From NCBI RefSeq assembly GCF_026167525.1, contig NZ_CP110679.1, positions 2,405,501 through 2,469,500 of the forward strand: 64,000 nucleotides of DNA, given 5' to 3'. This DNA comes from Sphingomonas sp. M1-B02. GTDB lineage: Bacteria > Pseudomonadota > Alphaproteobacteria > Sphingomonadales > Sphingomonadaceae. This document shows positions 6,841-8,725 of this stretch, piece by piece (within the stretch, counting starts at the first letter, position 1; each line of letters begins with the position of its first letter). Below the pieces are notes generated by a model. The model ran no database searches and had not been told where the DNA came from. It saw only the letters and a list, made by a program, of their open reading frames with translations. The translations under genes were made by a program, and so were the position numbers.

Positions 6841-7110
6841 TTATTTGCGAAGGCCGAGCTTCGCGATGATGTCGGTGTAGCGGGCGTTGTCGCTCTTCTT
6901 GAGATAATCGAGCAGCGAACGGCGCTTGTTGACCATGAGGAGCAGACCGCGGCGCGAATGGTTGTCCTTCGCGTGGGTCTTGAAGTGCTCGGTCAGGTTG
7001 ACGATGCGTTCGGTGAGGATCGCGACCTGGACTTCGGTGCTGCCGGTGTCGCCATCGGCGCGGCCATGTTCCTTGATGAGCGCGTCCTTGCGCTCTGCAG
7101 TGATCGTCAT
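6841..7110 (-). CDS. rpsO: 30S ribosomal protein S15
   Basis: An 89-residue protein, exactly the family length, with the S15 signature ([27 protein letters not shown] followed by [24 protein letters not shown]). S15 binds 16S rRNA early in assembly of the small-subunit platform. It lies between truB and pnp, the conserved truB-rpsO-pnp order. Confidence 0.98.
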
Positions 7111-7128: not shown

Positions 7129-8124
7129 TTACAGATTGAAGCCGCGGACGACCCGGACGAATCCGGCCTGAGCCTCTACCAGCGCGACAGGGACTTCCCC
7201 CAGCAGCGCGAAATATTGGCCCTCTTCAGCGGCAATCCCGGCCAAGACCTGCCCCTGTCGGAGCAGCCCTGCCTGGTCGGGGGTGAGGGAGAGAGCCGGG
7301 ATGTCGACCAGCCCCGCCCTCAACGGCAGGAGGAGTGTTTCAAGCTGCCGGGCCTTAGCGGCGTCGGCCAATTTGTCCAGCGAAATCGCGGGATCGAGGG
7401 TGAACGGGCCGGCGCGGGTGCGGCGGAGCATGGTGACATGGCCGACGGTGCCGAGCGCGAGGGCGATGTCGCGGGCGAGGGAGCGGATATAGGTGCCCTT
7501 GGAGACATGGGCGCTGAGGGTGATTTCGTCTAGCTCCTCCCCGGCACGGGGAGGGGGACCAGCCGAAGGCTGGTGGAGGGGGCTCTCCTCAAGCGCCTCG
7601 CTTGCGGCGCGCCCCCTCCACCAAGCTTCGCTTGGTCCCCCTCCCCGTTCCGGGGAGGATAAAGTGAGGGCATGTATCGTGACATCGCGGCTCGCGAGCA
7701 CCACTTCCTGGCCGGCGCGGGCGAGGTCGTAGGCCCGCTCGCCATCGACCTTCAGCGCGGAGTAAGCCGGAGGCACCTGCGCGATCGGGCCTGTGAAGCG
7801 GGGCAACACCGCTTCGATAGCGGCACGCGTGGGGCGCACATCGGACGCGGCGATCTCCACACCCTCAAGGTCGAGCGTGTCGGTCTGGACCCCGAACGCG
7901 ATCGTGAAGTCATAGACCTTGTCGCTGTCGAGCATCCGCCCCGCGAGCTTGGTCGCCTCGCCGATCGCGATCGGCAGCACGCCGGTCGCCAGCGGATCGA
8001 GCGTGCCGCCATGGCCGACCTTAAACTTGCCATAGCCGCCGTCGCGCAGCGCGCGCTTGACCGCGCTCACCCCTTGGGTGGAGCCGAGCCCGAGCGGCTT
8101 GTCGAGGATGATCCAGCCATGCAT
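7129..8124 (-). CDS. truB: tRNA pseudouridine-55 synthase, with inserted repeat
   Basis: A 331-residue TruB. The start MHGWIILDKPLG is chosen because it is the conserved N terminus, although the frame is open 45 codons further upstream into tdk. The GHGGTLDPLATG motif carries the catalytic Asp at 43. Residues 156-197 are foreign to the family: they are encoded by a 125-bp palindromic element (7535-7659) that keeps the frame and inserts Arg/Gly/Pro/Trp-rich sequence just before the conserved ITLSAHVSKGTYIRSL strand. Both flanks align with normal TruB, so the protein is probably still made with a surface loop. Confidence 0.95.
   Translation of the reverse strand: MHGWIILDKPLGLGSTQGVSAVKRALRDGGYGKFKVGHGGTLDPLATGVLPIAIGEATKLAGRMLDSDKVYDFTIAFGVQTDTLDLEGVEIAASDVRPTRAAIEAVLPRFTGPIAQVPPAYSALKVDGERAYDLARAGQEVVLASRDVTIHALTLSSPERGGGPSEAWWRGRAASEALEESPLHQPSAGPPPRAGEELDEITLSAHVSKGTYIRSLARDIALALGTVGHVTMLRRTRAGPFTLDPAISLDKLADAAKARQLETLLLPLRAGLVDIPALSLTPDQAGLLRQGQVLAGIAAEEGQYFALLGEVPVALVEAQAGFVRVVRGFNL
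7535..7659. repeat. Palindromic element inside truB, family A
   Basis: Two 49-base arms (7535-7583 and 7611-7659) are near-perfect reverse complements around a 27-base centre. Each arm itself contains two small hairpins (a CCTCCCC...GGGGAGG hairpin and a CCAG...CTGG hairpin). Differences between arms are mirrored within each small hairpin, as expected from selection on RNA or DNA structure. A related copy lies at 47929-48097. The element supplies about 42 in-frame codons of truB with no stop. Confidence 0.93.
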
Positions 8125-8131
8125 GCGCGGT

Positions 8132-8725
8132 CTACTGCGCCGCGCCGACGGGTGCCGTACGCTGCATGAAATGGCGGCGGCACAAAGCGATATAGCGCTC
8201 GTTGCCGCCGATTTCCTTCTGCTCGCCCTGGCGGACCGCATTGCCTTCGGCGTCGACACGCAGGTTCATCGTCGCCTTGCGCCCGCATTCGCAGACCGAT
8301 TTGAGCTCGACCAGCGAATCGGCGAGCGCGAGCAGTTCGGCCGAGCCGGGGAAGAGCTTGCCCTGGAAATCGGTTCGCAGCCCGTAGCACAGCACCGGGA
8401 TGCCGACCTCGTCGGCGAGATGCGCGAGCTGGCGGACCTGGGCCGGCGAGAGGAACTGCGATTCGTCGACGAGGATGCAGGCGAGCGGCGCCTGGAAATG
8501 CGCCTCCTCGGCGATCAATCGCAGATCGGTATCCTCGGCGAAGGGGATCGCATCCGCGACGATGCCGAGCCGCGAGTCGATCACCCCCTGCCCGCCGCGA
8601 TCATGCGCGCCGGCGGTGAACAGCAAGGTGCGCATGCCGCGCTCGCGATAGTTGAAATCGGCCTGGAGCAAGGTGGTCGATTTGCCGGCGTTCATCGAGG
8701 CATAATAGAAATAGAGCTTGGCCAT
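8132..8725 (-). CDS. tdk: Thymidine kinase, type II
   Basis: A 197-residue enzyme that phosphorylates thymidine to dTMP in the salvage pathway. The P-loop FYYASMNAGKSTTLLQ is near the N terminus, followed by VDESQFLSPAQVRQLA (Walker B and lasso region). A CECGRKATMNLR segment provides zinc-ligand cysteines. It lies 7 bases upstream of truB and just after rbfA on the same strand, an unusual guest in the translation-factor operon, and is presumably co-transcribed. Confidence 0.95.
   Translation of the reverse strand: MAKLYFYYASMNAGKSTTLLQADFNYRERGMRTLLFTAGAHDRGGQGVIDSRLGIVADAIPFAEDTDLRLIAEEAHFQAPLACILVDESQFLSPAQVRQLAHLADEVGIPVLCYGLRTDFQGKLFPGSAELLALADSLVELKSVCECGRKATMNLRVDAEGNAVRQGEQKEIGGNERYIALCRRHFMQRTAPVGAAQ

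Follow-up and report, generated by a model that had tools for sequence, protein, structure and literature searches.

A palindromic repeat translated within truB of Sphingomonas sp. M1-B02 and its probable relation to DUF559 genes flanked by inverted repeats

Palindromic repeats that are translated as part of bacterial genes have been described before. Di Nocera and colleagues have listed S. maltophilia, E. litoralis, and S. alaskensis as species with REPs in truB, and have also noted tRNA synthetases (PMC3733652). The accessible text of the same paper reports that truB of R. conorii holds RPE-1, and argues that translated repeat inserts may be neutral through their location in flexible parts of proteins (PMC3733652). 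Because these cases are listed there, translated repeats in truB have to be regarded as known since 2013. The Rickettsia palindromic elements are dispersed alphaproteobacterial palindromes of about 100–150 bp that occur in frame in core genes (PMC3733652, PMC10969869), and the accessible portions of these sources mention no nuclease-carrying form. The REPs tagged with CGTC or GTAG and associated with RAYT are palindromic, multi-copy, sometimes translated, and also found in truB (PMC3733652). DUF559 is a Vsr-like domain of the PD-(D/E)XK superfamily (PMC12907096). The same domain (PF04480) is present in Caulobacter VsrA (CCNA_02930), which has been studied with regard to cytosine methylation; the accessible text of its paper contains neither “palindrom” nor “inverted repeat”.

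The insert considered here lies in truB of Sphingomonas sp. M1-B02, in a window of 64,000 nucleotides (contig NZ_CP110679.1, positions 2,405,501 to 2,469,500), and belongs to a repeat family designated family A. Like the Rickettsia elements, family A is a dispersed palindrome of about 100–150 bp that stands in frame in unrelated core genes, a likeness of description. An earlier note on this DNA had drawn the same comparison; the similar behaviour was borne out, with the correction that more than one kind of event is involved: several repeat families reuse the one loop, and there is a form of family A that codes for DUF559. The REPs with RAYT have an analogous two-part design of catalytic gene and repeats, and families B, C, and G of the TruB loop are CGTC-tagged, like the CGTC REPs. 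Family A differs from REPs in being untagged, about 125 bp long, and paired with DUF559, in a genome without Y1_Tnp. It resembles MITEs in its short, gene-less, multi-copy form with inverted ends and in its coding relative with the same ends (DUF559, in five genera), but no consistent target-site duplication was seen by eye among 38 copies, and in its coding relative a Vsr-like nuclease stands where a transposase would be expected. No report of the reuse of one TruB turn by many families, or of a link between DUF559 and such repeats, was found in the open-access literature, supplementary files aside.

The repeat in truB and its copies in the genome

The insert is confirmed to be a palindromic repeat inside truB that is read in frame as about 42 TruB residues (Table 1). 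Between positions 7400 and 7800 a single, near-perfect inverted repeat was recovered, with arms of 61 nt that are 87% complementary and separated by a spacer of 3 nt. The earlier note had placed a palindrome here with two complementary arms of 49 bases; the palindrome and its two arms are thus present, and the length given for the arms has to be corrected. The RNA of the coding strand of the insert was predicted to fold at -117.2 kcal/mol (z -10.8), and 0 of 200 shuffles were equally low. Translation from residue 156 to residue 196 or 197 proceeds with neither frameshift nor stop, as had been claimed, and residues 156–197 read SSPERGGGPSEAWWRGRAASEALEESPLHQPSAGPPPRAGEE. The flanking TruB sequence also proved to be intact, as Pfam matched TruB_N at residues 33–157 and TruB_C_2 at residues 214–271. 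A search of Rfam for an identity of the element gave 22 matches to RNA families, of which 21 were microRNA families and all were under the gathering score; these were taken as generic matches to a long hairpin.

Table 1. Features of the truB region, in positions of the window
Feature	Position	Strand	Basis
Family A palindromic element, short gene-less form	7535..7659	.	Inverted-repeat search and own-genome copies
Left arm (3' side of the coding strand), translated as PLHQPSAGPPPRAGEE	7535..7595	.	
Right arm (5' side of the coding strand), translated as SSPERGGGPSEAWWRGR	7599..7659	.	
truB, tRNA pseudouridine(55) synthase, 331 aa, with the in-frame insert at residues 156–197	7129..8124	-	
Downstream neighbour of truB, which we take to be rpsO; control gene, orthologues without palindrome	6841..7110	-	
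Upstream neighbour of truB, presumably a thymidine-kinase-like ORF; control gene	8132..8725	-	

Family A occurs at no fewer than 40 places in the genome (3.6 Mb, one contig), a lower bound as 40 of 69 candidate places were scored. All 40 places were read, giving 42 rows with 2 duplicates, and 38 copies were compared after the duplicates and the two halves of a split copy (L119) had been omitted. Most of the 38 are bounded by TCCTCCCCGG...CCGGGGAGGA or by similar sequences. Their lengths are 121–132 nt in 35 copies and 109–111 nt in the other three. At least four of the six reading frames are open in 37 of the 38 (all six in 16 copies, five in 16, four in 5, and three in 1).

Copies within genes were called with Pfam and NCBIfam, codon scores having missed several, and a copy was taken as clear where matches to the protein family lie on both sides of the insert or across it. 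Clear in-frame copies were found in eight genes, namely those for TruB, BchB, BchD, LigD, PDH E2, GlyS beta, methylmalonyl-CoA mutase, and GluQRS; in LigD, PDH E2, and BchB the copy stands between two matched domains. An HGD-D-like gene and MurD hold probable copies, with a clear match on one side only, and SufD and a CysN-like ORF hold uncertain ones, at an N-terminal position. The suggestion that the repeat family tolerates translation is thus upheld by these in-frame copies in other conserved genes. The element was also matched in 70 of 149 genomes of the same bacterial family, the own genome counted. As a side observation, the insert-bearing genes for BchB (L008, 1347–2975) and for magnesium chelatase subunit D, BchD (L005, 1–2760), suggest that the genome has genes for bacteriochlorophyll synthesis.

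DUF559 nuclease genes between inverted repeats

One locus of the own genome (C1:2198177-2198620) holds a DUF559 ORF (PF04480, E 1.1e-26) flanked by two family A arms, and its protein was also matched to PDB 3hrl (2.6e-12). The domain PF04480 was found in 127 of 149 genomes of the bacterial family, with at most 10 matches per genome, and in 2 of 14 control genomes. Inverted repeats lie on both sides of the gene at 49 of 54 DUF559 loci, the remaining five falling under the inverted-repeat cut. The count is made up of 28/31 in a first set, consisting of the top matches and L119, 18/20 in a second set, and 3/3 further genes of the own genome. In the second set three loci had been picked for adjacent family A and DUF559 matches and one for two half A elements about 400 bp apart; the remainder were taken from DUF559 places in the match lists, for the most part in genomes rich in A matches. 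One DUF559 locus (L323) had no tblastn match and was positioned by its listed coordinates. Among the controls, 0 of 417 random windows in the DUF559 loci and 0 of 207 neighbouring genes of TruB loci were flanked in this way.

The arms around DUF559 genes belong mostly to families other than A, and often read CCCTCTCCC..GGGAGAGGG (L290–L343, several arm families). Family A arms on both sides of the gene were found in five genera (G000, G033, G075, G147, and G053); these five loci were reached through their A arms and not at random, one as the split copy L119, three by adjacent matches, and one by close half elements. One repeat family occupies both the TruB loop and the DUF559 flanks in only 3 of 25 DUF559/TruB pairs, each pair taken from a single genome and 15 of the 25 having a TruB repeat; the shared families are A in G000, D in G031, and F in G006, where the matches are short. 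It was also considered that the truB arms might have their closest relatives in the arms of the DUF559 copy, and this was rejected as other partial matches are equally identical.

It could be supposed that the DUF559 genes are cargo or parasites that landed in existing palindromes, and that family A is moved by something else. DUF559 genes do lie inside palindromes of several families, no nuclease stands beside most of the short family A copies, and IS1272 has been reported, in the accessible text on it, to move by replacing inverted repeats. This explanation is nevertheless unlikely, as the A-armed nucleases of the five genera group together in a tree of 54 DUF559 proteins, where they form one side of a branch with weak support for the exact group (54; 0 of 500 shuffles as low). 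The support rises to 99 for the branch with L338 added, a locus whose arms are only A-like. The A-armed proteins are not near-copies of one another, given their origin in five genera and their end branches of 0.3–1.2. In addition, the ORF passes through both arms in 5/5 cases and ends just past the element, a continuity that is expected of one inherited unit.

The reading frame of the arms bears on the same relation. In the A-armed DUF559 ORFs the 3' arm is translated as PLHQPSAGPPPRAGE or a near variant of it (in L325 with a slip at the extreme end), and TruB uses the same 3'-arm frame. The frame is also used by 6 of the 8 clear copies that lie within genes of the own genome (p 0.02 for an expectation of one third), by 9 of 12 when the probable and uncertain ones are included (p 0.004), and by 43 of 48 TruB A loops, which are related to one another. 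Given the grouping of the A-armed proteins, weakly supported as it is, the family A arms and the DUF559 nuclease look like one unit.

The TruB turn as a recurrent landing site

The insert is predicted to fill the turn of a beta-hairpin directly before the KGTYIR motif and to be disordered there. In an AlphaFold2 model (28 sequences, mean pLDDT 84) residues 159–194 have a pLDDT below 50 and lie between strands 146–155 and 200–207. In the two best alignments to solved structures the TruB match ends at residue 154–156 and restarts at 194–197.

The loop was surveyed in a fair sample of one genome per genus, in which 88 of 96 sampled sphingomonad genera were readable; of the eight excluded, one was unmatched, six were without a listed place, and one was at a contig end. 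For g6 and g21 the second genome was taken, in the case of g21 because no KGTYIR motif was found in the first (L165). A repeat-derived insert was present in the turn of 24 of the 88 genera and belonged to six families, with first-family counts of A 7, C 5, D 5, E 4, B 2, and F 1, one row having both C and E. A seventh family, G, was seen at two named TruB loci outside the 88-genus count. The earlier note had regarded the presence of the insert residues, without palindromic DNA, in TruB of most alphaproteobacteria as damaging to its claim; within the same bacterial family 64/88 genera have no repeat-derived insert, and family A is found in 7/88. The family letters were set by eye after the loops had been viewed, and the z-scores were not. 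Twenty-two of the 24 repeat-bearing loops are palindromic at z <= -2.5, and all loops longer than 26 residues with z <= -2.5 belong to these 24 genera. As a negative control, 27 repeat-free loops of 43–72 residues with a lineage-specific GRPDPYDP-like stretch all have z >= -1.5. Families B, C, D, and E are also multi-copy, giving 68, 38, 82, and 116 match rows, respectively, in one tested genome each, with both strands and halves counted.

Some side observations were made on these loops. The non-palindromic GRPDPYDP-like stretch fills the same turn in 34 of 189 rows (L145, L147, L152, L155, and 30 others), and repeats sometimes land beside it. By eye, the family A inserts of two loci appear to have a second, different palindrome nested in them; it lies in the left arm of L067 and in the right arm of L078. 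Two loci named as Bacillus sp. 2B10 (L067) and Microvirga sp. SRT01 (L047) have a sphingomonad-like TruB, for which contamination or wrong naming is likely.

The concentration of palindromes in the turn was examined at 80 named TruB loci. These had been ranked by a query containing the insert, so that inserts are over-represented among them, and their flanking genes serve as a fair control. There were 39 palindromes in the TruB loop (38 loci) against one, in pnp, in about 365 kb of six matched genes including the rest of truB. A further 48 lay in 120 kb between genes, that is, outside the matched parts of the six genes, where other genes or unmatched gene ends may also be contained. Class-wide, PF01509 was matched in 268 of 289 genomes, and the matches listed, which are those of best score and so favour insert-free genes, reach profile position 149 over 426–462 bp without an insert. 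GlyS beta also holds frequent in-frame palindromic inserts. Among 29 usable loci, 22 have one at a first site and 12 at a second, and the conserved parts of the gene contain a single palindrome in 54 kb; the phenomenon is thus not special to TruB. The GlyS sample comprised the own genome and 28 others of the same genus (L108, L260–L288), from the best 30 matches to an insert-bearing query, L289 being dropped.

A single ancient insertion of family A that was passed down and frequently lost, while gene conversion from other copies kept its arms similar, would account for part of these results. The 3' junction is almost constant, GGGGAG in codon phase 0 in 43/48 A loops; none of 188 other TruB loops scores higher against the window insert than seven own-genome copies do; and the insert of L094 looks by eye like a mosaic of those of L060 and L090. 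Such a history is quite unlikely all the same, as the other families at the turn cannot derive from A, and genera switch family, congeners carrying A and C (g2), D and C (g29), D and E (g54), or F and E (g7). In five other genera (g22, g82, g76, g52, and g24) one genome has a TruB repeat and one has none. On a FastTree gene tree of TruB with 189 rows and one label per row, the family label needs 62 changes. Nearly every row of the smaller families requires its own change (B 9/9, D 8/8, E 7/7, and C 9/10), and A needs 29 changes on this weakly resolved tree. The TruB turn is a recurrent landing site for unrelated repeat families.

Selection on the insert was assessed in five genomes of the S. 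faeni group with apparently one inherited insert. The TruB loop has a pN/pS of about 0.5–1.1 and the remainder of TruB one of about 0.05–0.15, which is the pattern of a peptide under almost no constraint. Variable columns number 6/103 in the arms, 9/28 in the centre of the insert, and 23/49 in the native loop behind it. At codon position 3 the arms vary at 1/33 sites against 33% in the flanks (Fisher p 9e-5, with sites treated as independent). This low variation counts against plain neutrality of the insert and fits gene conversion by other copies, or a constraint on arm sequence. Compensatory base changes were also sought and not accepted as a finding; conservation of pairing cannot be claimed, because 50 of 58 pairs are invariant and, among the 8 that vary, 5 include a broken pair.

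The insert might instead be kept for a function, as an RNA hairpin for transcript processing or regulation of the gene cluster, or as a useful peptide. Unrelated families at one site that are all palindromic would agree with this, and so would S. faeni arms that are more conserved than synonymous sites. It is very unlikely when the 64 genera without a TruB repeat are considered together with a peptide that differs between families, evolves at the above pN/pS, and is predicted to be disordered, and with the broken pairs of the S. faeni inserts. That the insert is an ordinary catalogued CGTC- or GTAG-tagged REP dimer is scarcely credible, even with CGTC REPs common in alphaproteobacteria and REPs reported in truB of two sphingomonads (accessible text of PMC3733652), as a CGTC-tagged hairpin occurs in 3/48 A loops against 9/9 of B, 10/10 of C, and 2/2 of G (background 2/29), GTAG in 0/48 A loops, and the RAYT domain PF01797 (Y1_Tnp) has 0 matches in the own genome and is present in 5/14 control genomes.

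A proposed origin of the insert and its meaning

The insert is more plausibly explained, and we consider this likely, as a non-autonomous MITE-like derivative of a DUF559-coding palindromic element that is tolerated in a permissive loop. The longer form would consist of an arm, the DUF559 nuclease gene, and a second arm, and the short form would derive from it by loss of the gene, with two arms of about 60 nt kept. By analogy with the RAYT transposases that are thought to act on REPs, we infer that the Vsr-like nuclease may cut DNA and drive the spread of both forms, which would make DUF559 the mobiliser of family A. Insertions that break a gene would be lost, and those in frame in exposed turns would persist. 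In-frame copies could survive at such turns because the arms are stop-free in most frames and the peptide is hydrophilic and predicted to be disordered. The turn of TruB that precedes KGTYIR would then be a safe site, and so would be filled repeatedly by whichever repeat family is active.

A wider proposal is put forward tentatively, with a chance that we place just short of even. DUF559 nucleases could be the engines of palindromic mobile elements, built as arm-nuclease-arm units with the arms within the nuclease frame, which shed gene-less palindromes. Arms that evolved for translation would make the copies pre-adapted to genes, and loops such as those of TruB and GlyS would be lasting refuges in which one family after another settles and is exchanged.

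A DUF559 gene between arms of the same family provides a named and testable candidate mobiliser for the untagged, RAYT-less palindromes of bacteria, and the nuclease frame that runs through the arms gives a concrete basis for the fact that such repeats are translatable at all. Overall, the seven families in one TruB turn amount to a natural insertion experiment, in which a core enzyme accepts about 20–80 foreign residues, and the reuse of this turn shows how repeats contribute new protein sequence.
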